A stretch of DNA of 64,000 nucleotides from Microbacterium sp. BR1 (GTDB lineage Bacteria > Actinomycetota > Actinomycetes > Actinomycetales > Microbacteriaceae), in NCBI RefSeq assembly GCF_002812725.1, contig NZ_NMUN01000003.1, positions 124,001-188,000 on the forward strand. Reading direction: 5' to 3'. The notes under the pieces were generated by a model. It saw only the letters and a list, made by a program, of their open reading frames with translations. It searched no databases and was not told the origin of the DNA. Below are positions 10,770 to 43,558 of the stretch, piece after piece (position 1 is the stretch's first letter; every line of letters begins with the position of its first letter). Position numbers and translations under genes: made by a program.

Positions 10770-11873
10770 GTGACAGTTCGACTGCGGGTGGTGCTCGACC
10801 GAGTAGCCGGGACCAACGATCCCGACCTCACGATCGCGTCCGCAGAACTCGTTTCCGCTCTCGTGCACACGGCTCCTCGAGGATGCCGAGTGGCAGGCAT
10901 CGATGGCCGAGAAACGCCAAACGCCGTCCCGCCTGAGGGTCTGGTCGACGTGTGGCGGGCCCCCGTCGGACGTCGCGAACTCGCGACCGCCTGGCGGATG
11001 GGGGTGTCGCTCGGGGGATCCGGCGGGATGATCCACTCACCGTCGCTCATGGCGCCTCTCGTTCGGCACGACCGGACACACGATCACGATCAGACTGTCG
11101 TGACCGTGTGGAGCCTTGAGGCATGGACACACCCGCAGCGCCTCGACCGTGCTGATGCCGCCTGGCAGCGCGCCATGCTCAAGCGGGCCGTTCGATTCGC
11201 TGACGCCGTCGTCGTGCCGACCCACGCGATGGCGGCAGAGTTGGCCGAGATCGCACCGCTCGGAGGCCGGATCCGCGTGATCGCCGGCGCTCCGCGCACG
11301 GGCTTCCGTGTTCCGGCAGACGCACCAGGACGCGCGCGCACGCTCGGACTACCGGAGCGCTACATCGCGGTTGCGGGCAGTATCACTGACCCCGAGGGTC
11401 TGATACCGGCGCTGCGCGCGGCCTCCGACCTGGACGTAGATGTGGTGGTGGCCGGGGGAGGGAACGATGACCCGGCACGGGTCGGTGAGCTAGCCGACGC
11501 GAACGGTCTCTCCGGGCACCGTGTACGAACGCCGTCCTTGATCGATGCCTCCGATCGCGCCGCGGTCCTCCACGGAGCGCTCGCGGTGGTCGCGGCATCC
11601 GAGGCCCCCGTCTTCCCGTGGCGCGCGCTCGAGGCGCTCGCCGTCGGCGCCCCTCTCATCGCGGCGAAGACAGCGCAGAACGAAGAACTGGTGGGGGATG
11701 GCGCGTACCTGACTGCCCGCGGCGACTCGGACGATGTGGCCGAGGCGCTCCGGCGCGTGATCGAAGACGAGGACTTCGCCGCGCGCTTGCGCGTGCTGTC
11801 GGAAGACCGATCGCGGGCTTTTTCGTGGCGAGACGCGGCCGAGCGGGTGTGGCAACTCCACGCCGAGCTGTAG
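10770..11873 (+). CDS. GT4-family (GT-B) glycosyltransferase
   Basis: A 367-residue protein with a GT-B layout. The N-terminal half has an HSPSLMAPL segment and a DAVVVPTHAMAAELAE stretch, typical of the interdomain helices of mannosyl- and rhamnosyl-transferases of GT4. The C-terminal half has VVAGGGNDDPARV and ALEALAVGAPLIA. The usual EX7E catalytic motif is not intact: Glu is present in LEALA, but the position eight residues earlier is Pro in SEAPVFPW. Donor and acceptor are unknown. It is the first plus-strand gene of the accessory glycan region and may have a leaderless transcript. It faces the ABC transporter operon at its 3' end, with only 6 nt between stops. Confidence 0.8.
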   Translation: MTVRLRVVLDRVAGTNDPDLTIASAELVSALVHTAPRGCRVAGIDGRETPNAVPPEGLVDVWRAPVGRRELATAWRMGVSLGGSGGMIHSPSLMAPLVRHDRTHDHDQTVVTVWSLEAWTHPQRLDRADAAWQRAMLKRAVRFADAVVVPTHAMAAELAEIAPLGGRIRVIAGAPRTGFRVPADAPGRARTLGLPERYIAVAGSITDPEGLIPALRAASDLDVDVVVAGGGNDDPARVGELADANGLSGHRVRTPSLIDASDRAAVLHGALAVVAASEAPVFPWRALEALAVGAPLIAAKTAQNEELVGDGAYLTARGDSDDVAEALRRVIEDEDFAARLRVLSEDRSRAFSWRDAAERVWQLHAEL

Positions 11874-11879
11874 CGCGTT

Positions 11880-12620
11880 CTACGCCCGCATGTGCGCGAC
11901 GGCGTCCTTGCTGTCGCCGTCGAAGACCGCTTTGCCATCGCGCAGGAGGATCCCGCGTTCACAGAGATTCGACACCATGTCGAGGTCATGACTGACGACG
12001 ACGAGAGTCTTCCCCTCCTCGTGTAGCTCTCGGATGCGTGCGATGCACTTCTTTTGGAACGGCTCGTCGCCGACGGAGAGGATCTCGTCGATGAGGAGCA
12101 CATCGACCTCGGTGTGGATTGCGACCGCGAATGCGAGGCGAAGGAACATCCCCGACGAGTAGTGCTTGACCTCTGTGTCAATGAACTGCTCGATTTCGCT
12201 GAACGCGACGATCTCGTCGAAACGTGACTCGGTCTCGCGTTTTGACATGCCCAAGATCGCTGCATTCAGATAGACGTTCTCGCGCCCGGAGAGGTCGGGG
12301 TGGAACCCCGCACCAACCTCGATGAGTCCTGCAACGCGGCCGCGAATGCGGATATTTCCCGTGTCGGGGCTGAGGACTCCGGACAACATCTTCAGGGTGG
12401 TCGACTTGCCCGACCCATTGAACCCGAGCAGTGCGACGGATTCGCCCTGCGCGACCGAAAAAGATACACCGTCGAGAGCGTGAAAGTCGGTCGTCAGGGG
12501 CTTGCGCCGCACCGCGGCGAGAAACGTCTCCTTGATGGAGTGCGTGTGCCGCAGTTTGAAGCTCTTATGCACGTCCTCCACGAGGATTGCGGGGATAGGC
12601 GTGTCAGAGATCCTGGGCAA
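11880..12620 (-). CDS. polysaccharide ABC transporter, ATP-binding protein (Wzt/TagH type)
   Basis: The nucleotide-binding subunit of an exporter for lipid-linked polysaccharide; with the permease encoded upstream it would move a finished or partial glycan to the outer face. About 246 residues: Walker A GFNGSGKST, a GLIEVGAGFHPDLSGRENV segment typical of the O-antigen/teichoic acid exporter class, signature YSSGM, Walker B VLLIDE and switch VVSHD. It lacks the C-terminal carbohydrate-binding domain of long Wzt proteins. No ATG fits. A TTG at 12620 with GGAGGG five nt upstream gives the N-terminus MPRISDTPIPAILVEDVHKS and overlaps the permease end by 17 nt. A TTG at 12656 is the other option. 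Confidence 0.9.
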   Translation of the reverse strand: MPRISDTPIPAILVEDVHKSFKLRHTHSIKETFLAAVRRKPLTTDFHALDGVSFSVAQGESVALLGFNGSGKSTTLKMLSGVLSPDTGNIRIRGRVAGLIEVGAGFHPDLSGRENVYLNAAILGMSKRETESRFDEIVAFSEIEQFIDTEVKHYSSGMFLRLAFAVAIHTEVDVLLIDEILSVGDEPFQKKCIARIRELHEEGKTLVVVSHDLDMVSNLCERGILLRDGKAVFDGDSKDAVAHMRA

Positions 12621-13473
12621 AGCGGCCCTCCAGCTTGCGGAACACGAATTGCCCAATGATCAGAACGACAATAGAGATCGCGAGCGCGAGGAACGAGAAC
12701 TCCCAGAGGCCGGGCAGTGGCTCTGCGTCTCGTGGGTCAAGAGGCATCCAGACTCCGTAGTGGAAGAGCTCGACAGCGGGCGTCACCGGATTCAGACGGT
12801 AGAGGAAGAACAACCAGTCGGGGACCTTCGATGCGACCATCTGCCATTGGTACATGACGGGCGAGGCCCAGATTGCGCACATGAGGATGATGTCGACGAA
12901 CGCCTGAGCATCTCGAAAGCTAACGTTCACCGCTCCGAAGAGCAGCCCCAGCCCCGTTGCGAGGACTGCGACGATGACGAGGGCGAGGAGTATCGCGCCG
13001 ATGTGCACGACCGACGGTGCCCATCCGAAGAACAGCGCGATCACGATCACGACGACGATTTGGGGAAGGGTATTCACCGCGGCGACGAGCATGCTCGCAA
13101 CAGGGAACAGCTCGCGAGGCAAGTAGATCTTCTTTATCAGCGCGGAGTTGTCGACGAGGGATCGTGTGCCGTTCGCGAAGGCCTCGTTGAAGAAAGTAAC
13201 GATCGTGATGCCGGCCAGCAGATAGATCGGGTAGAAGTCGATGGCCCCGCTGAGGCCGAGGAAGATCCCCAGCGCAACGAAGAAGACGGCGAACTGTACG
13301 AGTGGCTTGACGTACGACCAGAGCCAGCCGAGGACAGATCCCCGATAGCGGATCTGAACCTCCTTGCGGACCAGCAATGTGAGGAGATACCGGCGGCGGA
13401 AGACATCCACCATCCCGAGGCCGGTGCCGGGTTCGCGAAGGGGCACCGCCGAGGAGGATTTGTCGACGCTCAT
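12604..13473 (-). CDS. polysaccharide ABC transporter, permease (Wzm/TagG type)
   Basis: The membrane subunit of the ABC-2 class exporter that pairs with the ATPase encoded next. The 289-residue protein has a cytoplasmic N-terminus, the amphipathic LLTLLVRKEVQIRYRGSVLG segment typical of Wzm proteins, then about six membrane segments. ALIKKIYLPRELFPVA and ASPVMYQ are conserved in the family. The ATG at 13473 is preceded by a GAGGGGAAG ribosome binding site. A second, different permease is encoded at 51280-52071, so this exporter probably serves a different glycan. Confidence 0.92.
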   Translation of the reverse strand: MSVDKSSSAVPLREPGTGLGMVDVFRRRYLLTLLVRKEVQIRYRGSVLGWLWSYVKPLVQFAVFFVALGIFLGLSGAIDFYPIYLLAGITIVTFFNEAFANGTRSLVDNSALIKKIYLPRELFPVASMLVAAVNTLPQIVVVIVIALFFGWAPSVVHIGAILLALVIVAVLATGLGLLFGAVNVSFRDAQAFVDIILMCAIWASPVMYQWQMVASKVPDWLFFLYRLNPVTPAVELFHYGVWMPLDPRDAEPLPGLWEFSFLALAISIVVLIIGQFVFRKLEGRFAQDL

Positions 13474-13595
13474 CGCTTCCCCTCAGGCCGGTCGGCGCAG
13501 TTACCCATCCGTCCATTCTAGATGTGCTCGGTCCGCGTCTCCGCCCGCGCGATGGATATCATGGGGCAGATGTGTCGGACGGGGAGGAACTCGTG

Positions 13596-14522
13596 GTGAG
13601 CGATGCTTCCGGTCTGCCCGCTCGCGTGAACATCGTCATGCGCACTCGAAATCGACCCGTCCTGCTCTCCAGGGCTCTCGACGATGTGCTCGGGCAGGAG
13701 TACCTCGGATGGGTTCTTACCGTCGTGAATGACGGCGGCGACCGTGCGACGGTCGATGACCTCGTCGAGCGGCGAGCGGGCCTCCGGGACCGGGTCCGGG
13801 TGATCCATAATGAATCGTCAGTGGGAATGGAAGCGGCGTCGAATCAGGGCGTCCATGCTGTGGAGAGCGACTTCGTCGCGATCCACGACGACGACGACAC
13901 TTGGCACCCTCTGTTCCTCTCCCGAACGTCGGAATGGTTGGACGATAATCCCGAATCGCCCGCGGTCTCCGCGCGTACGGAGATCGTCTGGGAAGAGATC
14001 ACGGGCCGGATCGTTCGGGAGGTATCCCGGGAGACGTTCCTGCCGGACCGCACGCAGGTGACTTTCTTCGATCTGCTCCGTTTCAACACCTGCGTGCCGA
14101 TCTCATTGCTCTATCGGCGCGAGCGGTTGGTCCAGGTCGGTCTGTTCGACGAGACGCTGTCCGCCACAGGCGACTGGGAATGCAACCTTCGTCTTGCGGC
14201 GACCGGCCAGCTCGGTTTTCTTCGCGAGACGCTTGCATTCTGGCATCAGCGTGCGGGACAGAGCGGTGACTTGGGTAATTCGGTCATCGCCGCGCGAGAG
14301 GCTCACCGGGATCTCGATCGACTCGTGCGTGATAGAGCGCTACGGGCATATGTCGGAGATCACGGAGCGGGACTACCCCTGTACCTGACGCGTTTCTTGG
14401 ACGATCGTTTCGATGAGATGAGGGAGCGCCTCGACCGGATAGAGCGGGCGAACGCCACTCGATTCCCCGAGCGCGTCATCGCTGCCGCCCGCAGGGTGCT
14501 GCGACGACGGGCGAATCCGTGA
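13596..14522 (+). CDS. GT2-family glycosyltransferase
   Basis: A GT-A fold inverting glycosyltransferase of about 308 residues. It shows VNIVMRTRNRPVLLSRALDDVL at the N-terminus (nucleotide-binding strand), VVNDGG, then VAIHDDDDTWHP with the DxD metal site, and a GLFDETLSATGDWECNLRL segment, which places the catalytic Asp/Glu region near the C-terminal third. The end is a helical, Arg-rich tail. The GTG at 13596 is chosen because GGGGAGG lies about 8 nt upstream; GTG codons at 13593 and 13572 are alternatives. The stop overlaps the next gene (GTGA), so both are probably translated together. Donor and acceptor unknown. Confidence 0.85.
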   Translation: MSDASGLPARVNIVMRTRNRPVLLSRALDDVLGQEYLGWVLTVVNDGGDRATVDDLVERRAGLRDRVRVIHNESSVGMEAASNQGVHAVESDFVAIHDDDDTWHPLFLSRTSEWLDDNPESPAVSARTEIVWEEITGRIVREVSRETFLPDRTQVTFFDLLRFNTCVPISLLYRRERLVQVGLFDETLSATGDWECNLRLAATGQLGFLRETLAFWHQRAGQSGDLGNSVIAAREAHRDLDRLVRDRALRAYVGDHGAGLPLYLTRFLDDRFDEMRERLDRIERANATRFPERVIAAARRVLRRRANP

Positions 14523-16654
14523 CCTCTGCCGACCTCGTGGCGATCGTGTCGGTGTGGAGACATGGACGCGAGGTGGTGTCCACGCTGCATTCGCTGGATC
14601 TGGCACGGCGCCGAAACAGAGGCTTCAGGCGGATCGTCGTCACATGTCCTGCGGAGCTCAGTGATCAGGTCCGTGACGCCGTTGCACGTTCGCGGGTGGG
14701 AGACATCGCGGTACACGCCGTCGCGGGAGACCCGACACCAATGGCATTGCGTGCAGATGCCGTAGCGGTGTGCGATGCCGAGTTCTTCGCCTTCGTGGAC
14801 GCGGGAGACCTCGTCGGCGAGCGTTGGCTGGACGCGGCGCAGGCCGCGCTCGTGTCGTGTCGGCGTCGAGTCATCCGGCCCGAGTTGATCATTACCTTCG
14901 GCCGACGCAGCGGATCCTGGCCTCAGCGGGAGTGGCATGGTGACGTGAGCACTGCTCGCCTGCTCGCGAGCTTCGACCCGTGGGCGGGGGTTCTCGCTGT
15001 TTCGCGGGATGTGCTGTCGGAGGTGCCGTTGCCGCGAACCGCGACTTCCAATCTCGCGGCGCGGATGTGGAATGCCGCGCTCATCCAGGCGTCGATCCCT
15101 CAGGAAACGATGAAGCGATCCGTCGCATTCGTCCGTGTCTGGGACGACCAACCCACGTGGGAGTCGGCGAGCGGTCCCGTCCTCGCTCAGAGCGCACTCC
15201 TAACGAATCGAGAAATCGCCGCCGCGAAGGTTCCGCGCCACCCACCGCGGAAACGGGTGCCGACCGTTCTCGCGAGGATCGCGCGTGTCGCGCGATCCAG
15301 CGTCCGTCCCTGGCGGGACGCCGCCGCTCGGTGTGCGACGCGCCGCCGAGCTGCTCGTAGGTTCGCGCCGGAGGTGCTGTCGGATTGGCGATCTCAGAAT
15401 GCCATTGAGCCGCTCCTGCCCTATCCGAGGCCGATGGTCGGGGAATGGTATGAAAAATGGGGCGCGCCGTGGCCGACTCGCCTCGCTCGCGAAGCGGACG
15501 CGTATTGGAACCTTCTGAAGGCTCTGCCGCCCCGCGTTGACTATCTCTTCTTCGCCCCGTGGGTCCGGACGGGTGGCGGGGATCGTGTGCTTTCCGCGTA
15601 TCTCTCTGCTGTCGAACGGCTGGACGAGGGGGCGAGCGTTGCACTCGTGACGACCGAGGACATCGCGTCGACTCGCCTTGATTCGCTGCCACCACGAGTT
15701 GCCGTCGTGCAACTCCGGGATGAGCTGATGGCGGGAGTCCCGCGGCAGGCGCTCGTCGATCGTATTCTCCCGCAGCTAATCGCTCAGCTTGCGCCGCACA
15801 CGATTCATGCGTTCAACTCCACGGTGGCGCTCGACATCTTCGAGTCCTACGGGCGTGCGCTCGCTCCTCGCTCAAACCTGTATATCTCGACGTTCGCGAT
15901 CGATCGAACGCCGGATGGCGAGCGGACGTCGGTGCTCTTCCTGAGATCGCCCGATTTCCTCGAACCCGTCACGCGAGTGTTGACGGACAGCGATGCGTTC
16001 GTGCAGCAGATGGTTCAGGAGCAGGGCTATGATCCAGCTGCTTTCATTGTTCAGCGTCAAGTGATCGCGTCTTCGTCTCGATCACGTCATGAGCCCGCTC
16101 GATTCGATCGCGCTCGTCCGCTTCGGATGCTGTGGGCGGGGCGGTTCGACGTGCCCAAACGCCTCGACGTCCTGGCCCGCGTGGCGACCGAACTGCGCGG
16201 CCGCGGTCTGCCTGTCGAGGTGGTGTTCTGCGGCGAAGAGGTGATGGGAGACCCGACGCTCGGAGCGACTTTGGCATCACTCGCGAAGTCGGGCGCCGAA
16301 CGTCGACCGGCATATGCAGCGTTCGCCGAACTTCCTCTTGCTGACTTCGACGTCGTGATCATGACGAGCGAATGGGAAGGGCTTCCGCTTGTCATGCTCG
16401 AAGCGATGGGATCGGGAATACCCGTTATTGCGCCGTTGGTCGGAGGGGTTGGGGAGGTACTGAACGACGAAACCGGGTACCCGATCGTGCGATTCGACGA
16501 TGTCGGAGCGTATGTCGAAGCGACCGAGTCGATCCTCACCGACTACGCGGCAGCGCGTGCTCGCGCATCCCGCGCGCGCGCTCTCATTCTCGGCGAGTTC
16601 TCGTCGGCGAGTTTCGACGCGCGCCTCTGCTCCGTCCACGGCTATTTGCGCTGA
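14519..16654 (+). CDS. two-domain glycosyltransferase (GT2-like + GT4)
   Basis: A 711-residue protein, the first of three consecutive large fusions. The N-terminal part (about 1-230) is GT2-like, but the metal site reads FVDAGD (D94, D97), lacking the middle Asp of the usual DxD. The C-terminal part (about 330-711) is a GT-B/GT4 domain with FFAPWVRTGGGDRVL at its start, LRMLWAGRFDVPKRLDVL before the donor site and an intact EX7E motif in SEWEGLPLVMLEAM. So the GT4 half looks active and the GT2 half doubtful. The linker is Arg/Ala-rich. It is coupled to the GT2 gene upstream by a 4-nt overlap. The sugar and polymer are unknown. Confidence 0.82.
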   Translation: MTSADLVAIVSVWRHGREVVSTLHSLDLARRRNRGFRRIVVTCPAELSDQVRDAVARSRVGDIAVHAVAGDPTPMALRADAVAVCDAEFFAFVDAGDLVGERWLDAAQAALVSCRRRVIRPELIITFGRRSGSWPQREWHGDVSTARLLASFDPWAGVLAVSRDVLSEVPLPRTATSNLAARMWNAALIQASIPQETMKRSVAFVRVWDDQPTWESASGPVLAQSALLTNREIAAAKVPRHPPRKRVPTVLARIARVARSSVRPWRDAAARCATRRRAARRFAPEVLSDWRSQNAIEPLLPYPRPMVGEWYEKWGAPWPTRLAREADAYWNLLKALPPRVDYLFFAPWVRTGGGDRVLSAYLSAVERLDEGASVALVTTEDIASTRLDSLPPRVAVVQLRDELMAGVPRQALVDRILPQLIAQLAPHTIHAFNSTVALDIFESYGRALAPRSNLYISTFAIDRTPDGERTSVLFLRSPDFLEPVTRVLTDSDAFVQQMVQEQGYDPAAFIVQRQVIASSSRSRHEPARFDRARPLRMLWAGRFDVPKRLDVLARVATELRGRGLPVEVVFCGEEVMGDPTLGATLASLAKSGAERRPAYAAFAELPLADFDVVIMTSEWEGLPLVMLEAMGSGIPVIAPLVGGVGEVLNDETGYPIVRFDDVGAYVEATESILTDYAAARARASRARALILGEFSSASFDARLCSVHGYLR

Positions 16655-16668
16655 GGCGATGTCGGTCG

Positions 16669-18909
16669 CTACCTGAGGTCTGTGGCGAGGGTCTCGCCGA
16701 CCGTTCGTGCGAAGGCAGCCCAAGAATGATGTGAGACCGCGAAGGCATATCCGTTCTCGATGAGCTCGCGACGGAACTCGATATCCGCCATCAGACGCTC
16801 GACTGCATCCGCATAACCCTCGATATCGTCCGGACCATTCGTCAGGAGTCCCGTCGTCTCGTGGACGATGATGTCGGGGACCCCGCCCACGCGTGACGCG
16901 ATCGCGGGCAGTCCAAGCAGGAGTGACTGCACCAACACAAGGGGTAGGCCCTCGGACTTCGAGGTGAGGAGTAGAGCATGGTACCGATTCGTATCGAGCG
17001 ATGCGAGGCCACCCGAGTAGGGCCCGCGGTAGATCGCTCCCGCCTCTTTCAAGTCGCGCAATAAAGAGGTTCCGGCGGGAGTCAGAACGCGTTGGCCCCA
17101 CACCTCGATGCGCGCGGGGATCTGCCGACGACGCAGCTCACGACTCAGCGCGACCAGGACGTCCGGGCGCTTCTCATCGTCCAGACGGTGAGGCCACAAG
17201 AGTGTGAACGGGGCCATATCCGAGAAGCGGTCATCTCGGTAGGCGTTCGTGTCCCGGTTCAATGCGGGTGTCTCGTCCATCGCTGGCTGCCGGTGCACGA
17301 GTACACGCTCGGGTGGAAGAGCGAGGATCTCCTCGATCAACATTTCGGTTGTGCTGTTGTCGGTCAGGAGCCCGTCTATCGCGTCGAGGTAGGTGCGCTG
17401 ACTGTCGTCGGTGATCGGGTTCACCGGGTACCCCTCGCCGATCCTGTCGAATGCAAAGAGCGTGGCGTACGCCCGTGTACCGTCCAGGATCTGGCCGTGA
17501 TGGTCCTGCAAGGCTTCGGTCACGTGGAAACAATTCACGGAGACGAGCAACTCTGGGCGCACGAGGACGATCAGCTGGGCGATAAGCCGACGTCGGATGT
17601 GCGGGGCCAACTCGAGCCAGCGCGAGTCGAGGTGGACATAGCTGATCGACTCGGGGATCAGCTCCCTGACGGTCCGCTCCTGGAGGAACGTGCCGAGTAT
17701 CGTTGTGCGATCGCGGAATCGGTCAGTGCCCGCTAGGGCCTTCGCGTAGTTCAGGGACACGATGTCCGCCCCACCGACTCCGATCCAGGGGACGGCGACC
17801 AGAGCGCCCCCGCGTCTGTCGAGCTGATCGAGCGCAGCTTCGAGGCACTCTGCGTATCCATCGTCCCTTGCGAGCCATATGGGTAGCTTCTGAAAGGAGT
17901 GCGCTGTCCAGGATACCGCTGGATCGATTTCGGCCGCTGCGCTGAGCGCAGCTGCGACGGCCGGCCGAACTCGATTCGTGGCGCGTTTCCCGGAACCCGT
18001 GACCGTTCGCATCACGCCGCGAGCTGCACGGTAGATGCCGTGCTTCGCTTCGAAACTCAGCCAGCGTGTCGACCAGCGCGCGAACGGCAGAAGGATCGCG
18101 TACGCGCGCTGCGGGAAGCTTCTGCGGTGAGGAGACGAGGAGGAGCCGGGTTGCGTACCTGGGATCGGGAGGTGCCGCTTGAGTCCTTCGAAGTCGAAGA
18201 CGGGCAGGATCGACACAGAGTGGCGGCTATTGACGCCGCCCTGTTCCCGCACTCGATAGAAGAACACCGTGTCGGGCGCTACGTCGTGCACGACGCCAGC
18301 GGCGCTCGTGTCGATATTCCACACCCAGTCTTCGGGGCCATAGCCTTTCTCGGGGGGCAGTGTGCGATAGGGATGCTCGAGGTATACGTCGCGTCGCGTT
18401 ACGGCCGAGGACGGCCAGAGGTTGTGCCTGATCAGGTCGCGGTACGACACATCGTGCGTTCGTGTGGACTCGGTACGCCAGAGGAGCGACCGCGCTCCGA
18501 AGCTCACGACATACTCCGGATGGATGATCGTTGGGGCGTCGCTTGCCCGCAGGAGGCGGAGCGCATCGTCGAGATAATTCGATGACACGAGGTCGTCGCC
18601 GTCTACGAAGGCGACGTACTCGCCCAGTGCTTCGTACGCTCCAGCATTCCTCGAGGCGCCCGACTCGCCGAGCGCAACCTCTATCATCCGCACGTCATAG
18701 CCGAGGTCCGAGAGCGTGCACCATCGCCGCGCTTCGGACAGCACGACGTCGTCGGCGTTGTCGCAGACGATCAGGAGTTCGGCGGTGTTTCCAGAGTCCA
18801 CAACGCATTCCAGCGCCGAAGCCACAGAGCGCAGCGTCGGTCGCAGGAGTCGGCCTTCGTTGTGCGCGGTGATCACCACAGTCAAATCCGGTCGCCGCGG
18901 CAGAGGCAT
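16669..18909 (-). CDS. two-domain glycosyltransferase (GT2 + GT4)
   Basis: A 746-residue paralogue of the proteins at 14519-16654 and 18992-21190. The GT2 half begins LTVVITAHNEGRLLRPTLRS and has an intact metal site FVDGDD (D103, D105). The GT4 half starts near 370 with VAVPWIGVGGADIVSLNYA and has TLLWPHRLDDEKRPDVLVAL, but the EX7E motif reads EGLPLVLVQ: the second Glu is Gln. This is the reverse pattern to the plus-strand paralogue. The ATG at 18909 is preferred over a TTG one codon earlier. It converges on the upstream paralogue with 14 nt between the stops. Function beyond glycan assembly is unknown. Confidence 0.82.
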   Translation of the reverse strand: MPLPRRPDLTVVITAHNEGRLLRPTLRSVASALECVVDSGNTAELLIVCDNADDVVLSEARRWCTLSDLGYDVRMIEVALGESGASRNAGAYEALGEYVAFVDGDDLVSSNYLDDALRLLRASDAPTIIHPEYVVSFGARSLLWRTESTRTHDVSYRDLIRHNLWPSSAVTRRDVYLEHPYRTLPPEKGYGPEDWVWNIDTSAAGVVHDVAPDTVFFYRVREQGGVNSRHSVSILPVFDFEGLKRHLPIPGTQPGSSSSPHRRSFPQRAYAILLPFARWSTRWLSFEAKHGIYRAARGVMRTVTGSGKRATNRVRPAVAAALSAAAEIDPAVSWTAHSFQKLPIWLARDDGYAECLEAALDQLDRRGGALVAVPWIGVGGADIVSLNYAKALAGTDRFRDRTTILGTFLQERTVRELIPESISYVHLDSRWLELAPHIRRRLIAQLIVLVRPELLVSVNCFHVTEALQDHHGQILDGTRAYATLFAFDRIGEGYPVNPITDDSQRTYLDAIDGLLTDNSTTEMLIEEILALPPERVLVHRQPAMDETPALNRDTNAYRDDRFSDMAPFTLLWPHRLDDEKRPDVLVALSRELRRRQIPARIEVWGQRVLTPAGTSLLRDLKEAGAIYRGPYSGGLASLDTNRYHALLLTSKSEGLPLVLVQSLLLGLPAIASRVGGVPDIIVHETTGLLTNGPDDIEGYADAVERLMADIEFRRELIENGYAFAVSHHSWAAFARTVGETLATDLR

Positions 18910-18991
18910 CAAGAACCCACTTCATCGATCGGAGAGCCCCGCGGGGCGAGTGTCACAGCATCAGCACGATTCTCCCACGAGTCGTCCCCGG

Positions 18992-21190
18992 TCAGTTCCC
19001 CGCCGATTCCCCGAACACCTCTGCTACGCGGCTGCGAAACGACGCCCAGGAGTGCTGGGCAGCGGCGTATTCGTATCCCTGTTCGATGAGCGTCCGGCGC
19101 AGAGCGGACGAACGAAGGCGTCGGATCGCGTCCACCATTTCTTCCACGTCTTCGGGGCCACGCACCAGCAGGCCTGTGCGCCCATCGATGACGATCTCTG
19201 GCACACCTCCTACTGCCGTCGCGACGACCGGGAGGCCCAGGAGCAAGGACTGGACCAGGACGAGCGGCAGGCCCTCCGTCTGTGAAGTGAGAAGCAGGAG
19301 GTGGTAGTCGGTGAGTGGGAGGCTCAATAGGCCGCCCGCATATGGACCGCGGTAGCGGATGCCTGCGCCTGCGAGATCTGTGAGGAGGCCGTCGGCCGCG
19401 CTCGAATCGACGACAGGCGATCCCCATACGTCGATCTCAGCCGCTATCCCATGGCTGTTGAGGGTTCTTGCGAGCTTGATCAGGGCATCTGGACGCTTTT
19501 CCGCATCGAGTCGGTGCGGCCACAGCACGCGGATCGGTTCGTCGTCCGCGAGGTCATCCGAGTATGCAGCGCCCCCGCGATCGAGGTCGGGAGTGACAGG
19601 GAAGGCGGGCTGAAGATGCACATGAGTCATGTGCTCGACGGTCACGATCTCCTTCAAACGCGAGGCCATCGTCGAGTTATCGGTGAGTATTCCCGCCGCC
19701 AGGGAGAGCGGCGCGCGCATTCCCTCGTCGGTGAGAGGGCTCGATGGCAACCCGGAGACGCGTCGATCGAATCCGAACATCGTCAGATAGAGGTCCGTGG
19801 CATCTGTGATCTGCTCGGGGAACTGCTGCATCGCGTCAGTGATGTGATGGCAGTTCACGGAGATGATCGATCGTGGGGCGAGAAACACCACCAGTTGGGC
19901 GAAGAATCGCTGACGCCAGTACCCATCGCGCTCGTCAAGCAGTGTCGGAATTTGAAGGAGCGAGACGCCGTCCGGCACTGCGTCGAGCACAGTTCTCGCT
20001 GGGTCCCCTGTGGTGAGAAGGACGACGCGTTCATCGTTCGCCGCGAGTTCGATCAACGCGCGGAGGTAGTTCGTCGCTACGAGGCCCCCTCCGCCGATTC
20101 CGAGCCAGGGCACGGCGACGAGAGTGGTTCGTCGGCCGTTGCCCTGCGATAGGAGGCGCTCGAGCAAGGCGCCGTGCCCATCGTCGCGAGGCCGCCAAAG
20201 CGGGAGCTGCGCAAGGTTCTCGACCGCCCAGGAGACTGCTGGGTCGAGCACGGTTGCTTCGCGAAGCATCTCGAGGAGTTCGGCCGACGGGCATGTGTCA
20301 GACGCGACGGCACCTTCTCGGTCTGCCCCGCGCTCGACGACTCGCTTCAGCGCGGCGCGCAGGCGCCCCGGCAGCGGGAGCCGTCTCGCGAAGCGAGCCG
20401 CACGATCGAGGCCGCCGTGCCGCGGTGTGCGGACGTGGGGATCGTGCGCGATCGGCGCGGTGTCGGGGTATCGAAGGAGTCCCGTCATGTCGATCGGGGG
20501 GAGGATCCGCGCAACCGCGTCGGCGGCATTCGTGGAGAACGTTTCGCGCTGCAGGTGCATTGTCTGGGCGACGGAGCGATGGTCGATTCCGGAGGACAGG
20601 GTGTCCACGCTCCACGCCCACACCTCCGCGTCCCGACCGTACGACGCGGGAATTTCCTTGAACGGCGCCGTGCTGAGCGTCCGCCGCCTTCCCAGGGCGA
20701 GGGATGACCAGGGTTGATGATGGATCAGGTCCGCGAGGGCGAGATCCTCGCGTCCGTGGGGGAGAAGGCGCACCTCATTCTTCCGACCGAAGCTCAGGAC
20801 GGCAGCGGCGTGGATGATGCACTCGCGATCCGTGGACATGGCCGCGGAATGCGCCCGAGCCAGAAAGTCGGGTGTCATCATGTCGCCGGAATCGATCATC
20901 GCAACTGTGGTTCCGGTGGCAGAACGGACCGCTTCGTTCCTCGCCCCGCCGCGTGTCGTGGCGTCGCTCCGGAGAATGTGTAGAGGGGAATCGTGTGAAG
21001 ACATGTGGGATTCGAGCGGCGGCAGTTTTATGCTCCTGCTGGTCGCGATGATGACTTCGCAGGAGAGCCCTAGCGCCTCAGCACGCGCGGTTGCGGCGAG
21101 CACGGAGTGGACAGTCGGCCGGAGAGAGCGCGTATCGCGATCTGCGATGACGAGGACGGAGACGTCGATCACATCGGAATTGGCGCTCAT
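18992..21190 (-). CDS. two-domain glycosyltransferase-like protein (GT2 + GT4), both sites altered
   Basis: A 732-residue paralogue most like the protein at 16669-18909, just downstream. The GT2 half has AMIDSGD where the metal site is expected (D100, D103, no middle Asp). The GT4 half starts with VAVPWLGIGGGGLVATNYL, has VLWPHRLDAEKRPDALI, and carries EGLPLVLVQ in place of EX7E. Both active sites therefore deviate, so it could be a scaffold, a partner of the neighbouring paralogue, or an enzyme using altered chemistry. The ATG at 21190 has a GAGGAGA ribosome binding site and is divergent from the GT-C-like gene. Gap to the next gene on this strand is 82 nt. Confidence 0.8.
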   Translation of the reverse strand: MSANSDVIDVSVLVIADRDTRSLRPTVHSVLAATARAEALGLSCEVIIATSRSIKLPPLESHMSSHDSPLHILRSDATTRGGARNEAVRSATGTTVAMIDSGDMMTPDFLARAHSAAMSTDRECIIHAAAVLSFGRKNEVRLLPHGREDLALADLIHHQPWSSLALGRRRTLSTAPFKEIPASYGRDAEVWAWSVDTLSSGIDHRSVAQTMHLQRETFSTNAADAVARILPPIDMTGLLRYPDTAPIAHDPHVRTPRHGGLDRAARFARRLPLPGRLRAALKRVVERGADREGAVASDTCPSAELLEMLREATVLDPAVSWAVENLAQLPLWRPRDDGHGALLERLLSQGNGRRTTLVAVPWLGIGGGGLVATNYLRALIELAANDERVVLLTTGDPARTVLDAVPDGVSLLQIPTLLDERDGYWRQRFFAQLVVFLAPRSIISVNCHHITDAMQQFPEQITDATDLYLTMFGFDRRVSGLPSSPLTDEGMRAPLSLAAGILTDNSTMASRLKEIVTVEHMTHVHLQPAFPVTPDLDRGGAAYSDDLADDEPIRVLWPHRLDAEKRPDALIKLARTLNSHGIAAEIDVWGSPVVDSSAADGLLTDLAGAGIRYRGPYAGGLLSLPLTDYHLLLLTSQTEGLPLVLVQSLLLGLPVVATAVGGVPEIVIDGRTGLLVRGPEDVEEMVDAIRRLRSSALRRTLIEQGYEYAAAQHSWASFRSRVAEVFGESAGN

Positions 21191-21285
21191 CCTTGTATTC
21201 TCCTCTCGGTCATGCGCCTGCGCACGTTCCTTCACGCGGTGCGAGCGCTCGCCGAGCCACTGAGTTCGCAGTGAGGTCCATCGGA

Positions 21286-33209: not shown

Positions 33210-34631
33210 TCAGACTTCCCCACACCATCGGGCAACGGCCTGCCCAAGACGTCGATCGAAGTCGACCGGTGAATAGCCAGTCGCCTCAATCTTCGAAAGG
33301 TCGAGTTCGCTGCTGCGCGGTCGAGGAGCGACCGGACCTTGGGCCTCGCGGTAGTACTCAGTGGTGGACACGGGCGTGACGCGATTAGCGTCGCCCCCCG
33401 CGAGAGAGAAGACCATGCGAGCGATCTCCGCCCAGGACCGCGGGTCGCCTGCACCCGTGAGGTTGTAGACGCCGAAGGGGGCTCCCGTCTCGACTAGATG
33501 GAGTATTCCAGTGGCAAGATCTTCGGTGAAGGTCAGGCGTCCCACCTGATCGTTGACGACCTTGGGTGCCACGCCACGCTGGGCCAGGTCGACCATTGTC
33601 CTCACGAAGTTCCTCCCGTCGCCGATGACCCACGATGCGCGTACGACGTAGTGCTTGGGAACCGTCCCCACTAGAATATCGCCCGCGGCCTTCGTCTGGC
33701 CGTATACACCAAGAGGACTAACAGGGTCGTCTTCGCGGTACGGTCGATCGGTCTCGCCATCGAAGACATAGTCCGATGAGACATGAACGAGCGTGAGGTC
33801 GTTCATGGCCGCGATCCTCACGAGGTGAGCGACCCCCTGGACATTCGTCGCCCAGGCCTCCCGTCGCCCATCTGGCGTCTCGGCGAGGTCGACTGCTGTA
33901 TACGCCGCAGCGTTGATGATGACTTCGTAGTCGCTCCACAGGCGGGCATGCAGCACCGACTCATCGGCGACATCGAACTCCTGCCGGTCCGCGAACTCGA
34001 CATCTTTCCTCGCATCGAGTGCTTGTCGGAGGGCGTGTCCGAGCTGGCCCTCCCCGCCCACGACCAGGATCTTGCGTCGAGCCACCGGAATCACGGCAGC
34101 CAGTCGTGGGTGACGCCTGTCCTTGGCGGACACCGCCGCTCGATCCAGCGCGATCGGCCACGCGATCGCCGCGGTCTCATCTTCGAGGTTGAGGAAGGTG
34201 TAGTGAGCGTCCGAGGACCAATGATCGTTCACCAAATAGCTGTAGGCGGTGTCTTCTTCCAAGGTCTGATAGGCGTTTCCCACCCCGCGCGGAACGAACA
34301 CGGCACGCGACGGGTCGAGTTCTGCGGTGAAGACGGTTCCGAAGGTCGGCCCGTCCCTGAGGTCGACCCAGGCCCCAAAGACGCGACCCGTAGCGACGGA
34401 CACCCACTTGTCCCACGGCTCCGCATGAATACCGCGCGTTGTGCCGATTGCGTCGTTGAACGAGACGTTGTTCTGCACCGGGCCGAAGTCCGGAAGGCCC
34501 ATCGCAATCATCTTCTCGCGCTGCCAGTTCTCCTTGAACCAACCTCGCGAATCGCCGTGGACGGGCAGATCCCACACAGTTAGTCCAGGAATCGGGGATG
34601 GAAACGCTGCGAGATGCTTACCGAACTCCAT
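33210..34631 (-). CDS. rmlCD: fused dTDP-4-dehydrorhamnose 3,5-epimerase / dTDP-4-dehydrorhamnose reductase
   Basis: 473 residues that carry the last two steps to dTDP-L-rhamnose in one chain. Residues about 1-180 are RmlC: DSRGWFKENW, the catalytic His in TTRGIHAEPWDKW (H69) and VPRGVGNAYQTLE with the conserved Tyr. Residues about 186-473 are RmlD: ILVVGGEGQLGHAL for NAD(P)H binding, SSDYVFDG, the YGQTK catalytic pair and VNDQVGRLT. The ATG at 34631 comes 8 nt after the rfbB stop. Fused RmlC-RmlD proteins occur in actinobacteria, so this is not a frameshift artefact. Confidence 0.93.
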   Translation of the reverse strand: MEFGKHLAAFPSPIPGLTVWDLPVHGDSRGWFKENWQREKMIAMGLPDFGPVQNNVSFNDAIGTTRGIHAEPWDKWVSVATGRVFGAWVDLRDGPTFGTVFTAELDPSRAVFVPRGVGNAYQTLEEDTAYSYLVNDHWSSDAHYTFLNLEDETAAIAWPIALDRAAVSAKDRRHPRLAAVIPVARRKILVVGGEGQLGHALRQALDARKDVEFADRQEFDVADESVLHARLWSDYEVIINAAAYTAVDLAETPDGRREAWATNVQGVAHLVRIAAMNDLTLVHVSSDYVFDGETDRPYREDDPVSPLGVYGQTKAAGDILVGTVPKHYVVRASWVIGDGRNFVRTMVDLAQRGVAPKVVNDQVGRLTFTEDLATGILHLVETGAPFGVYNLTGAGDPRSWAEIARMVFSLAGGDANRVTPVSTTEYYREAQGPVAPRPRSSELDLSKIEATGYSPVDFDRRLGQAVARWCGEV

Positions 34632-34639
34632 GACCACGC

Positions 34640-36507
<1,868 letters not shown>

Positions 36508-36583
36508 AAGAGACCAGCCTGCCACGTCGTGACAACGTCGTCCTCGACCGTCGAGGGCAGCTCTGGACGCGCCGTTCCGTGCG

Positions 36584-37504
36584 TCATCGTCGTCCCGCGA
36601 CAAAGTCGTAGATCGATTGCCGCCATCCGATGGTCGGTTTCCAGCCGAACTCGTCGCGCAGGCGAGCTGCGGAGCCGACGATGTTCGGTGGATCCCCGGG
36701 GCGCAAGCGCGCAGAGTCCACGATGACCCGTGGTATGGGGCGACCAGACGCGGCCGCGACAGCCGCAAGTACCTCGCGCCCCGAGTGCGATTCGCCGGAT
36801 GCCACGTTGTACAGCCGGTGTGCGTGTGTAGGAGCGAAAGCGAGCGTCAGATACGCTCGCGCGACGTCACGAACGTCGGTGAAATCGCGTTTCGAGTCAA
36901 GATTTCCCACGGTCAACGCTTCGCCATCGCGGAGATCTCGCATCGCGAGAGCGAAGTCGGGAACGATGAACCCGGGACCCTGGCCGGGGCCGATGTGGTT
37001 GAACGGACGCGCGACGACCGTGTCGAGTCCCCGGCGGGAGTAGTACTCAGATTGTGTTTCGACGAGAAGCTTCGCTACGGCGTAAGGGGAGTTTGCGGAG
37101 CATGGATCCGCTTCCGTGATCGGATGCCCGTCCTCGGGTGGGGTGTACACGGCACCCGAGGAGACGACGACAACCCGTGCCCCCTGCCCTGCATGGAGCA
37201 GCGCCTCGCACATCGTGGTCATAATGCCGCTGTTGACCGTCAAGTACCTTTGCGGCTGCCCGAATGACGGCCCGACTGCTGCAAGGCCGGCGAGGTGCAC
37301 GACGGCATCCGCGTGTTCGAGCACCGGCCATGTCGTCTCGAGGTCGGCGCGCAGGTATACCGCGGCGTGCGGAGAGAGGGCGTCGGACGGCTCCGGTTCC
37401 CGGCCGACCCCGATGACGCGCACCCCGTCCGCCGAGGCGAGCGCGGCCACGTGCGCGCCGACGAAGCCGTTCGCGCCCGTGATGACGAGCGTTGGTGCGC
37501 TCAC
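36584..37504 (-). CDS. GDP-6-deoxy-4-keto-hexose reductase-like SDR (Rmd type)
   Basis: A 306-residue extended SDR protein beginning [17 protein letters not shown], with VVVSSGAVY, the YxxxK pair in [11 protein letters not shown] and [20 protein letters not shown]. The last segment is characteristic of Rmd, which reduces GDP-4-keto-6-deoxy-D-mannose to GDP-D-rhamnose; close relatives make GDP-6-deoxy-D-talose. The GTG at 37504 overlaps the gmd stop (GTGA), so it is directly coupled to the enzyme that makes its presumed substrate. GDP-L-fucose synthase is less likely because the sequence lacks its usual features. Confidence 0.85.
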
Positions 37505-38511
37505 GCGGACGCTATCGACGCGGCGGCCGATTGCGTGGCGAGGTCGTGTGCCACCATACGGCTCACCAGCCCGGGGAAGTCGACCTTGCGGCGCCAGCCG
37601 AGCTCCTGTTCGGCCTTCGTCGGGTCGCCGAGGAGGATGTCGACCTCGGCGGGACGCATGAACTCGGGATTCTGCCGGACGTACGGGCGCCAGTCCTCGA
37701 TGCCGATCTCGGCGAACGCGAGCGTCAGGAACTCCTCGATCGAGTGCGTCTCGCCCGTGGCGAGCACGAAGTCGTCGGGCACGGAATGCTGCAGCATGCG
37801 CCACATCCCCTCGACGAAGTCGCCCGCGTAGCCCCAGTCGCGCTTGGGCCAGAGGTCGCCGAGCTCGATGTCGGGCTGCAGACCGAGCTTGATGCGTGCC
37901 ACGGCGTGCGTGATCTTGCGAGTGACGAACTCTACCCCGCGACGTTCGCCCTCGTGGTTGAAGAGGATGCCGCAGGCGACGAACATCCCGTAGCTCTCGC
38001 GATAGTTCTTCGCGATCCAGTGGCCGTACAGCTTCGCGACGCCGTAGGGGCTGCGCGGGTGGAAGAGCGAATTCTCGTTGTAGCCCGCACCGGGGCGGTT
38101 GTAGTCGAGCCCCCCGAACATCTCCGAGGTCGAAGCTTGGTAGACACGGGTACGTTCCGCGCGGCCGGTGATCCGCACGGCCTCGAGCACGTTGAGAACG
38201 CCCTTGGCCGTCACATCCGCCGTGAGCGTGGGGTTCTTGAATGAGTACCCCACGTGGCTCACGGCCGCGAGGTTGTAGAGCTCGTCCGGGTCGGAGGTCT
38301 CTACGGCGCGCACGAGCGATGTCGGGTCGGTGAGGTCACCCTCGATCAGGCGGACGTACGGCATCTCGACAGCGACGCTTTCGCGGCGCGGATTGTGCTG
38401 GCCCCGGATCAGGCCGTAGACCTCGTAGCCCTTCTCGTGGAGCAGCTCAGCGAGGTGCCCACCGTCCTGACCGGTGATCCCGGTGATGAGTGCGCGGCGC
38501 GTATCTGCCAT
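37501..38511 (-). CDS. gmd: GDP-mannose 4,6-dehydratase
   Basis: Converts GDP-D-mannose to GDP-4-keto-6-deoxy-D-mannose. The 336-residue SDR protein has ALITGITGQDGGHLAELL, AAVSHVGYSF, ASTSEMFGG with the catalytic Thr-Ser-Glu region, SPYGVAKLYGHWI as the YxxxK pair, ILFNHEGERRG and LGDLWPKRDWGYAGDFVEGM, all diagnostic of Gmd. The ATG at 38511 has an ideal ribosome binding site (AGGAGGAATTC). Its substrate GDP-mannose needs ManA (58723-59913 in this window) plus ManB and ManC, which are not in the window. Confidence 0.97.
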   Translation of the reverse strand: MADTRRALITGITGQDGGHLAELLHEKGYEVYGLIRGQHNPRRESVAVEMPYVRLIEGDLTDPTSLVRAVETSDPDELYNLAAVSHVGYSFKNPTLTADVTAKGVLNVLEAVRITGRAERTRVYQASTSEMFGGLDYNRPGAGYNENSLFHPRSPYGVAKLYGHWIAKNYRESYGMFVACGILFNHEGERRGVEFVTRKITHAVARIKLGLQPDIELGDLWPKRDWGYAGDFVEGMWRMLQHSVPDDFVLATGETHSIEEFLTLAFAEIGIEDWRPYVRQNPEFMRPAEVDILLGDPTKAEQELGWRRKVDFPGLVSRMVAHDLATQSAAASIASA

Positions 38512-38558
38512 GAATTCCTCCTGCTTGATAACCCTGACAGCATAGTCGGCGAGGCTCC

Positions 38559-39800
38559 CTACGCCGTGATGGGCGGGGTCTGGTCGAGCGTCTGCAGCGC
38601 CCGCCGACACCGTCGCCAGAGCAGTACCGTCGCTCCCATTTCGGTGAGTGCGTATCCGATTGCTGCGCCGACGGGTCCGATCATGAGCGCGAGCACGATC
38701 ATGGCCGGGACTCCGACCAGTGTGGACAGCAGCGTCGCGCGCAGGACCGCGCCGGCTTCGCCCGCAGGGTAGAGGATGTGCCGGGTCATGGAGGTGCGAA
38801 CGGAGAAGAACGCGAAGGTGAGACCCATCGCCAGAAGCACCGGAGTCGATGACGCTGCGGCCGCACCGAAGAGGATCGCGCTTACCCAGGCGCCGAGAAC
38901 ACCGAGGCCGGCGAAGCCGAGGAGCCCGACCAGCCCGTGCGCCGTCAGAGCAAGTCGCATACGACGGCTGCGTCCGGGCCCGTGCGCCTCCGCGATCCAG
39001 GTCTGCAGGGCGTTCGCGAGCGTCATCGGGATGAACTGACCGAGCTTGAGCATCTTGTCCGCCGAGGCGAAACCCGCCGCCGCGGAGACCGGAGCGGTGA
39101 GCGACACGAGTGGCGTCGGCACGGTCGAATAGACGCTCAGCCCGACATCGTTGAGCGCGACGGGCGAGCCGGACCGGAATAGCTCCGCGACGTCCCGTCG
39201 GCGCGGCCACGCCGCGGGGTGGCTCCTGAGAACGCGCAGTGTGAAGAGTCCCGTGCCGACCAGAGTGACGGCGATCCCGGCGATCGGATAGAGCTCGACG
39301 GGAGCGCCGTAGAGGATCGCCAGAGCGCAACCGGCGGTGACGGCGAGGCGCGGGAGCGAGTCGTAGAAGACGATGGAGAGCGGATGGCCGACACCCGCCG
39401 AGAACCATGTGAAGGTCAAGGCGATGAATGCCCCCTGAAGCCCCATCAGTACCGCGAGCCACGTGTGCCCCGGGTCCGCGACCACCCAACAGATCACACA
39501 CATGATCGGGAGGGCGAGCGTGGCGACGAGCAGGCGGACCACGAGCGATCCACGGTACAGCTCACCGCGCCGCGTGTGGTCACTGATGGAGATGAGCGCG
39601 GGGCCGATCGACATCCAGCCGTATCCGATCACGATCGATGCGAGCGAGCCGATCGACTCACCCGCTATCGCGCTCGCCCATCCGGCCGGCCCAGCCGAGC
39701 GTGCCACGATGGGCAGGACCAGGAGCGGCGAGATGGCGGCGATCGTCGGGACGAGGAAGAACAGGACGAGGCGCCGCCACAGGGGGGAATCGTCGTTCAT
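38559..39800 (-). CDS. Wzx-like lipid-linked oligosaccharide flippase (MOP superfamily)
   Basis: A 413-residue protein with about twelve membrane segments and little else, the shape of polysaccharide flippases (Wzx/RfbX). Recognisable features are LVLFFLVPTIAAISPLLVLP at the start, VALNDVGLSVYSTVPTPLVSL in the middle and an Arg-rich loop at about 290-300. It would turn an undecaprenyl-linked repeat unit to the outer face, an alternative to the ABC exporters. The ATG at 39800 overlaps the stop of the GT4 gene upstream (ATGA). The gmd gene starts 47 nt on. Sequence divergence in this family makes the substrate unpredictable. Confidence 0.78.
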   Translation of the reverse strand: MNDDSPLWRRLVLFFLVPTIAAISPLLVLPIVARSAGPAGWASAIAGESIGSLASIVIGYGWMSIGPALISISDHTRRGELYRGSLVVRLLVATLALPIMCVICWVVADPGHTWLAVLMGLQGAFIALTFTWFSAGVGHPLSIVFYDSLPRLAVTAGCALAILYGAPVELYPIAGIAVTLVGTGLFTLRVLRSHPAAWPRRRDVAELFRSGSPVALNDVGLSVYSTVPTPLVSLTAPVSAAAGFASADKMLKLGQFIPMTLANALQTWIAEAHGPGRSRRMRLALTAHGLVGLLGFAGLGVLGAWVSAILFGAAAASSTPVLLAMGLTFAFFSVRTSMTRHILYPAGEAGAVLRATLLSTLVGVPAMIVLALMIGPVGAAIGYALTEMGATVLLWRRCRRALQTLDQTPPITA

Positions 39801-40924: not shown

Positions 40925-40928
40925 CCGA

Positions 40929-43342: not shown

Positions 43343-43546
43343 GCGGTCTCAGCATTCTTCGGGGCGGAGCGGATGTTCCGCACTGATCTCTTCGACGAAA
43401 GCCGGGGCGTCGGGCATCCGCTCGTCGATCATGGTTCACCCGGTCGGCAGATCACCAGGACAGTGACACACTTTAGCCGATGGCGCTTGAGCGGCTCCTG
43501 ATCGAGGGAGCACGCGTGCTGCCCGGTCCACTGCGGGCGTCTCAAC

Positions 43547-43552
43547 TACGAT
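43547..43552 (+). promoter_or_regulatory. putative -10 hexamer for the GT4 gene at 43559
   Basis: TACGAT lies 6 nt before the GTG at 43559 without a ribosome binding site between. The rest of 43343-43546 shows nothing recognisable. Confidence 0.4.
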
Positions 43553-43558
43553 GGCCCG

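Follow-up and report, generated by a model that had tools for sequence, protein, structure and literature searches.

Three paralogous GT2-GT4 fusion glycosyltransferases in a Microbacterium glycan locus, two of which probably retain a pseudo-GT-A domain

Pseudo-transferase domains are already established in the glycan polymerases of animals. In the heparan sulfate polymerase EXT1-EXT2, the pseudo-transferase domain of EXT2 keeps its place in the complex with its donor-site residues lost (PMC9675754). For glycosyltransferases (GTs) of family GT2, mutational data exist for TarS, in which the changes R75A, D91A, D93A, D94A and E177A abolish activity and D178N lowers it severely (PMC5156392). The present analysis concerns three neighbouring genes, copies 1, 2 and 3, in a stretch of 64,000 nucleotides (the window) from Microbacterium sp. 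BR1 (contig NZ_NMUN01000003.1, positions 124,001 to 188,000), each of which encodes a fusion protein with an N-terminal GT2 (GT-A) half and a C-terminal GT4 (GT-B) half. With a probability of roughly 60%, these glycan-locus paralogues are predicted to contain between them one live GT-A site, probably three GT-B activities and two retained pseudo-GT-A domains. The trio stays together in related genomes though two of its members have lost key catalytic residues of the first domain, which suggests that the apparently dead domains are kept for another job, for example holding partners. The features of the trio, including its open reading frames (ORFs), are the following.

14519..16654, + strand: copy 1, complete ORF of 711 residues, GT2-GT4 fusion with a putative pseudo-GT2 half and an intact GT4 half
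14519..15229, + strand: degenerate GT2 (GT-A) half of copy 1 (no PF00535 match; hhalign to intact GT2 halves, probability 99.1, E 7.9e-19)
14798..14809, + strand: DAGD of copy 1, metal Asp (TarS D93) changed to Gly (residue table of the family alignment)
15041..15073, + strand: place of the lost GPED base motif of copy 1 (residue table and profile alignment)
15539..16651, + strand: GT4 (GT-B) half of copy 1 (PF13692, 1e-15; VIA-align Z 31.7 to HepE 4xsp_A, 341 aligned residues, root-mean-square deviation 3.1)
16373..16402, + strand: WEGLPLVMLE of copy 1, intact EX7E (residue table)
16669..18912, - strand: copy 2, complete ORF of 747 residues, GT2-GT4 fusion with an intact GT2 half and an EX7Q GT4 half
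16927..16953, - strand: EGLPLVLVQ of copy 2, EX7Q (Gln in 5/5 copy-2 members)
18325..18339, - strand: GPEDW of copy 2, intact ED base motif (residue table)
18592..18603, - strand: DGDD of copy 2, intact metal motif (TarS D91, D93, D94; phmmer alignment to TarS and residue table)
18992..21235, - strand: copy 3, complete ORF of 747 residues, GT2-GT4 fusion with a putative pseudo-GT2 half and an EX7Q GT4 half
19250..19276, - strand: EGLPLVLVQ of copy 3, EX7Q, Glu in two orthologues (residue table)
20618..20635, - strand: RDAEVW of copy 3, ED-motif Glu kept, base Asp changed to Val (residue table)
20882..20893, - strand: DSGD of copy 3, metal Asp changed to Gly (residue table)
21190, - strand: alternative ATG start of copy 3, internal to ORF 18992..21235

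An initial annotation had described three neighbouring GT2-GT4 fusions by their motifs, which are confirmed here: copy 1 has FVDAGD and EX7E (EGLPLVMLE), copy 2 has FVDGDD and EX7Q (EGLPLVLVQ), and copy 3 has MIDSGD and EX7Q (EGLPLVLVQ). The span it gave, 14519-21190, starts correctly and ends too early, at the internal ATG of copy 3, whose ORF extends to 21235. Copies 2 and 3 are 38-40% identical, and copy 1 shares 26-28% with either; judged from their sequences, the three are paralogues. No further full-length member of the family was found when the organism's own genome (3.8 Mb) was searched with copy 2.

The GT2 half of copy 2 is recognized by PF00535 (8.6e-14) and carries both the metal motif (DGDD) and the base motif (GPEDW) of a GT-A enzyme. 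By GT2 convention, GPEDW is presumed to correspond to TarS E177/D178, a place that lies beyond the end of the phmmer alignment. PF00535 also matches the GT2 half of copy 3 (6e-06), and no Pfam GT2 match, PF00535 included, was found in the N-terminal half of copy 1 or of its orthologue in genome G1219. Homology of the copy 1 and copy 3 halves to the intact GT2 halves of the family is indicated by hhalign probabilities of 99.1 and 99.95, respectively. Neither of these halves has the catalytic combination of DxD and ED: GPEDW is altered to NLAARMW in copy 1 and to RDAEVW in copy 3, the base Asp is absent, and both elements are also missing in the orthologues. AlphaFold2 models of window copies 1 (pLDDT, the predicted local distance difference test, 86.6; pTM, the predicted template modelling score, 0.85) and 3 (pLDDT 85.3, pTM 0.83) are confident over most of both halves (alignments of 22 and 23 rows), and both models gave GT-B fold matches; when whole models were submitted to Foldseek and VIA-align, the best 50 matches listed for each were taken up by GT4-type folds.

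The states of six GT2 and six GT4 positions were tabulated for 28 rows, of which 27 contain a GT2 half and 24 contain a GT4 half, with TarS numbers 75, 91, 93 and 94 checked against the printed alignment. In the copy-2 lineage, the equivalents of TarS R75, D91, D93, D94, E177 and D178 are all kept in the five members, in line with the initial view that this GT2 site is intact. Among the other GT2 halves of the family, those of R75, D91, D93, E177 and D178 are kept in 14/15 (the exception being genome G980), and the D94 place in these 14 holds Asn in ten and Asp in four. The copy-1 lineage has Gly at the D93 place in 3/3 members and a gap, Gln or Glu at the D178 place; the copy-3 lineage has Gly (one) or Ala (two) at the former and Val (one) or Ala (two) at the latter. 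The GT2 site loss thus goes further than had been claimed, taking in the metal and the base Asp together, and is common to the orthologues. The residue states are conserved and not random (3/3 each for copies 1 and 3, 5/5 for copy 2). Altered halves occur elsewhere in the family, too. In the G980 fusion (L086, 2320-4521, + strand), the GT2 half has degenerated independently (RASD, no ED) and the GT4 half has DX7E; L084 (7450-10541) and L085 (7553-10643) each encode two tandem proteins of 513-522 residues in which the GT2 half is intact and the GT4 part is truncated.

Other enzymes of the same genome provide a background for these losses. Its 25 PF00535 matches were reduced to 22 by excluding copies 2 and 3 and the sub-threshold L120 (the sub-threshold L119 was included, and copy 1 is unmatched), and the third motif position, judged by eye, is Asp in 21, His in one and Gly in none. 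Likewise, 24 PF00534 matches became 19 after exclusion of the three copies and of L137 and L144, which have no motif in the printed stretch; here the second Glu, again judged by eye, is Glu in 18, Asp in one and Gln in none. By this comparison, the departures from the motifs in the copies are more than chance.

The GT4 halves present a different picture. The glycine loop, Arg, Lys and first Glu are kept in 11/11 members of the three lineages, window copies included, and PF00534 or PF13692 scores above its cut-off in all three copies. The second Glu of EX7E, which is usual and not universal (Asp occurs), is Glu in copy 1 (3/3 in its lineage), Gln in copy 2 (5/5) and, in the copy-3 lineage, Gln in the window and Glu in the two orthologues; in 12 other GT4 rows it is Glu in 11 and Asp in one. 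This Gln is common to copy-2 members that are only 44-65% identical, and in copies 2 and 3 EX7Q lies within their best conserved stretch, with 80% of residues shared in a window of 30 residues vs. about 40% overall. Gene conversion as the origin of EX7Q in copies 2 and 3 was rejected, as the identical residues mostly differ in codon (15-26% the same, windows starting at 639-659). As a side observation, over the C-terminal 180 residues of these copies (16669-17208 and 18992-19534), residues common to both share their codon at a rate of only 14-33% per window of 30 residues, below most other windows of the pair.

A described enzyme helps to interpret this substitution. In the rhamnosyltransferase WsaF, E333A lowers affinity and activity without abolishing activity, the matching Glu binds the ribose ring of the nucleotide, and the authors assign E333 to recognition and not to catalysis, the first Glu being absent from WsaF (PMC3898925). 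A mutant of the second Glu of TarM was sought in the literature and not found. By analogy, EX7Q probably does not mean loss of GT4 function; alone it is weak evidence for a dead GT4 half, and Gln may still leave the site active. Since EX7Q is fixed in copy 2 with the other landmarks intact, the copy 3 orthologues have EX7E (2/2) and WsaF E333A is only reduced, the earlier proposal that the GT4 halves of copies 2 and 3 are dead is not supported. Of the complementary loss of active sites that the initial annotation had proposed, the GT2 part therefore stands and the GT4 part does not. A truly dead GT4 half looks otherwise: in a paralogue from G1089, the loop, Arg, Lys and first Glu are missing together, and in its GT2 half the equivalent of D178 remains while those of R75, D93 and E177 are gone. 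This 710-residue protein is encoded beside copy 2 (L087, 12730-14862, - strand), with sub-threshold GT4 traces as its only Pfam matches. Elsewhere in the window, a GT4 gene (10770-11873, + strand) has PVFPWRALE (PX7E) in place of EX7E, which resembles the proline-rich PHPSYPPLE of WsaF, a possible rhamnose signature in the view of its authors (PMC3898925).

Relationships among the members were reconstructed separately for the two halves. The family alignment was built without L036 (Arsenicicoccus, GT2 part only, 33%) and L043 (G010, separate GT4 and GT2 ORFs); the G1385 gene is spread over several frames, so its GT4 half alone was used, in the GT4 tree, and G1058 and G1034, which have no GT4 C-terminal part, entered the GT2 tree only. 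In the GT4 tree, copies 2 and 3 and the G1089 paralogue form a group (100/99), and copy 1 is placed apart, among fusions with an extra domain (99/98); window copy 3 joins copy 3 of G1219 and G1402 (97/99), and copy 1 joins its counterparts (100/100). Because this tree sets copy 1 apart from copies 2 and 3, the GT2 losses in copies 1 and 3 are probably two events. The branches that lead to the copy 1 and copy 3 GT2 halves are long (for copy 1, a stem of 3.45 vs. 0.41 in the GT4 tree), and the long branches of G980, the G1089 paralogue and copy 3 make the GT2 tree unsure. Identity between the window and G1219 in the GT2 and GT4 halves, respectively, is 0.38 and 0.57 for copy 1, 0.29 and 0.50 for copy 3, and 0.50 and 0.45 for copy 2; relative to copy 2, this contrast gives z -4.0 for copy 1 and z -4.5 for copy 3, from domain identity counts rebuilt from rounded fractions. 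Between G1219 and G1402, the ratio of nonsynonymous to synonymous substitution rates (dN/dS) of the dead GT2 halves is 0.185 (bootstrap 95% 0.11-0.28) for copy 1 and 0.245 (0.14-0.43) for copy 3, compared with 0.125 for the intact GT2 half of copy 2 and 0.12-0.21 for the GT4 halves. By these estimates, the dead GT2 halves are under purifying selection; judged by branch length and identity, over the long term they nevertheless evolve faster than their own GT4 halves.

Strong relatives of the trio are rare and scattered. With copy 1 as query, they occurred in 7/299 genomes of the bacterial family (E up to 1e-20); with a protein-family profile, they were detected in three of 396 genomes of the order and four of 396 of the phylum at 1e-40, and in 8/366 of the genus at 1e-30. 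The own genome is included in these counts, and the larger taxa were searched as samples; the order, phylum and genus searches scored the best two candidates per genome, and all copies were sought again in seven genomes. Two genomes of the same genus, G1219 and G1402, hold all three lineages in the corresponding locus, within about 20 kb and with the gene order rearranged. G1089 has copy 2 and the neighbouring paralogue without copy 1, and Root166 has copy 2 alone, no counterpart of copy 1 or copy 3 having been found there at E up to 10. The partners thus do not co-occur constantly, and a mandatory three-part complex is unlikely because Root166 has copy 2 without copies 1 and 3. Every genome with copy 1 or copy 3 has both (3/3), provided that the G1089 paralogue, whose place in the trees is unsure, is not counted as a copy 3. 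As for plasmid carriage, none of 72,556 plasmid records gave a match (E up to 1e-20).

The single fusion present in each of G1291, G1292 and G1385 is of another type, extended at its C-terminus by an extra domain. Such a part, of about 400 residues, is seen in the fusions L038, L039, L042, L082, L083, L092, L093 and L094, and a stretch resembling SNFGDILQ is common to it in L038, L039, L042, L083 and L092-L094. In L039 it has no Pfam match; we presume a likeness to polysaccharide pyruvyl transferases. In G010 (L043, 8256-10503, + strand), the GT4 and GT2 parts are encoded by two ORFs that overlap and lie in the opposite order, which may represent a split relative.

What the comparison shows is the state of the key residues and how well it is conserved, the selection that acts on the dead halves and the sharing of the locus; from these we infer which halves are active. 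The trio would belong to a locus for a cell-envelope glycan, and among its paralogous GT2-GT4 transferases copy 2 alone would have a working GT-A site. The pseudo-GT-A domains of copies 1 and 3 may have been retained as structural or acceptor- or partner-binding modules. The GT4 halves would be kept as transferases, with canonical EX7E in copy 1 and EX7Q or EX7E in copies 2 and 3, the Gln of EX7Q probably still contacting the nucleotide ribose or adjusting the choice of donor. The dead halves could hold partners, either each other or, for copy 1, a stand-alone GT2 encoded immediately upstream.

Several observations weigh against this proposal. The trio is known from three genomes only, and the selection test compares one genome pair. 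The GT4 half of copy 2 could be impaired, Gln occurring at its position in 0/19 other GT4s of the genome. The members of the copy-2 lineage come together in the GT2 tree (89/87, not starred) and are not resolved as a group in the GT4 tree. The GT-A fold of the dead halves stands on homology and confident models, the GT4 half having dominated the fold matches. Finally, acidic residues other than the lost ones, which the initial annotation had considered a possible objection, do exist at the level of sequence, so that this objection may still apply: all six members of the copy-1 and copy-3 lineages have Asp or Glu at the first place of the motif and Asp at the fourth, and PDQ and PDE occur close to where PED has been lost in copy 1 of G1219 and G1402. 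Moreover, window copy 3 keeps the Glu that precedes the lost base Asp, and window copies 1 and 3 have the R75 Arg, lost in 4/4 orthologues (V, V, L, F).

The neighbourhood of the trio includes genes for an ABC (ATP-binding cassette) exporter, a stand-alone GT2, GT4 enzymes, membrane proteins of the UbiA and GtrA types and a protein of the LCP type, together with Polysacc_synt_2, epimerase and dTDP-rhamnose genes. From this gene set, the product would be a rhamnose-containing, ABC-exported, wall-attached glycan.

11880..13473, - strand: ABC exporter, ATPase at 11880-12656 and membrane part at 12604-13473 (Pfam, locus comparison)
13524..14522, + strand: stand-alone intact GT2, its stop overlapping the copy 1 start by 4 bases (PF00535, 9.7e-19)
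33210..36768, - strand: dTDP-rhamnose genes (RmlCD fusion, RmlB-like, RmlA-like), with orthologues beside copy 1 in G1219 and G1402

Further glycan genes (GDP-mannose dehydratase type, Polysacc_synt, several GTs) lie at 36584-44617 of the window, and their counterparts are directly beside copy 2 in G1219 and G1402.

The stand-alone GT2 (13524-14522) is a possible partner of copy 1. It is conceivable, if tentative, that copy 1, this GT2 and the ABC exporter form a module of their own and copies 2 and 3 serve another step, so that the paralogues never meet; such an arrangement would be compatible with the reading proposed above. The four-base overlap favours it, as do the close relatives of the stand-alone GT2, which were found in four of the 18 stretches searched (those of G1219, G1402, G233 and G1385), all with copy-1-type genes, and in none of the Root166 and G1089 stretches with copy 2. 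However, none was found in the other stretches with copy-1-type genes (L039, L042, L082, L083, L092 and L093), and the three lineages stay within about 20 kb of each other in G1219 and G1402.

It is rather unlikely that copies 1 and 3 carry functionless GT2 halves in decay after duplication, the proteins being kept for the GT4 half. These halves do evolve faster, and other members have shortened or degenerate halves (G980, G1058, G1034, G1089); however, their dN/dS is well below 1, full length is kept in 3/3 genomes for each copy, and the models are confident. The original proposal of complementary halves, in which copy 2 would serve as GT2 only, copy 1 as GT4 only and copy 3 as an inactive scaffold within one complex, is also improbable. 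The states of copies 1 and 2 are indeed fixed, both motifs are altered in window copy 3, and the G1089 copy 2 adjoins a paralogue that is short of key residues in both halves, so apparently inactive partners exist. Nevertheless, it would require EX7Q to mark a dead half, which both EX7E-bearing copy 3 orthologues speak against, and copy 2 is alone in Root166 and without copy 1 in G1089. Continued activity of the copy 1 and copy 3 GT2 halves through an altered or metal-independent site is very unlikely, for although their purifying selection and the remaining acidic residues and Arg listed above would fit, the Arg is lost in all four orthologues, the metal and base Asp are lost jointly in 6/6 members, and single changes kill or nearly kill TarS (PMC5156392).

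Preference is thus given to one live GT-A site with two retained pseudo-GT-A domains, and it remains to place such a trio among known systems. Among solved structures, 5tze matches the intact GT2 halves best by profile (E 3.4e-11) and comes second to 9jma by single sequence; we take 5tze to be TarS, in agreement with the residue numbers. The top fold matches for the GT4 halves of copies 1 and 3 include TarM (4x7r; Z 31.3 and 32.2, respectively); at 16% identity, this implies no substrate. In staphylococci, TarS (GT2) and TarM (GT4) are separate wall teichoic acid transferases, whereas the halves of the trio are fused. WsaF is similar as a GT4 enzyme that has departed from EX7E and is still active; however, it lacks the first Glu and not the second, and it has no fused GT2 (PMC3898925). 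A parallel with GtfA/GtfB was dropped, as the text consulted says only that both are needed for a stable product. The same protein family and domain order are found in single-copy actinobacterial fusions (G094, G180, G243, and, with the extra domain, G233, G070, G029, G667, G569, G1291 and G1292), in which neither half is degenerate: eight of these ten keep every tabulated position except for Asn at the TarS D94 place (10/10), and the exceptions are G243, which also has EX7D, and G667, with Ser in the glycine loop.

No report of such a bacterial trio was found among the papers listed from the open-licence literature on inactive or pseudo-glycosyltransferases, on the GT2-GT4 pair or on the wall polysaccharide of the genus, which is weak evidence. 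The chondroitin polymerase CHSY-CHPF is alike in pairing an active bifunctional transferase with a mainly stabilising paralogue; CHPF, however, is inactive (PMC12748766), whereas a plausible GT4 site persists in copies 1 and 3, and the G1089 paralogue is closer to CHPF. By analogy, the nearest parallel to the trio is the animal EXT1-EXT2, which likewise consists of paralogous two-domain transferases with a retained degenerate domain. The differences are that other families and another domain order are involved, that the complex is shown for EXT1-EXT2 and supposed for the trio, and that the trio comprises three paralogues with two pseudo-domains (PMC9675754). It might be speculated that the trio represents a bacterial hetero-oligomeric glycan synthase, with one live GT-A and two or more pseudo-GT-A scaffolds and, in G1089, a subunit dead in both halves, as an independent counterpart of EXT1-EXT2 and CHSY-CHPF. 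Bacteria would then provide a natural series, which begins with an intact fusion present as a single copy, continues with paralogues in which one half is dead and ends with a paralogue in which both halves are apparently dead, by which the question of why dead transferase domains persist, in these proteins as in the animal polymerases, could be addressed.

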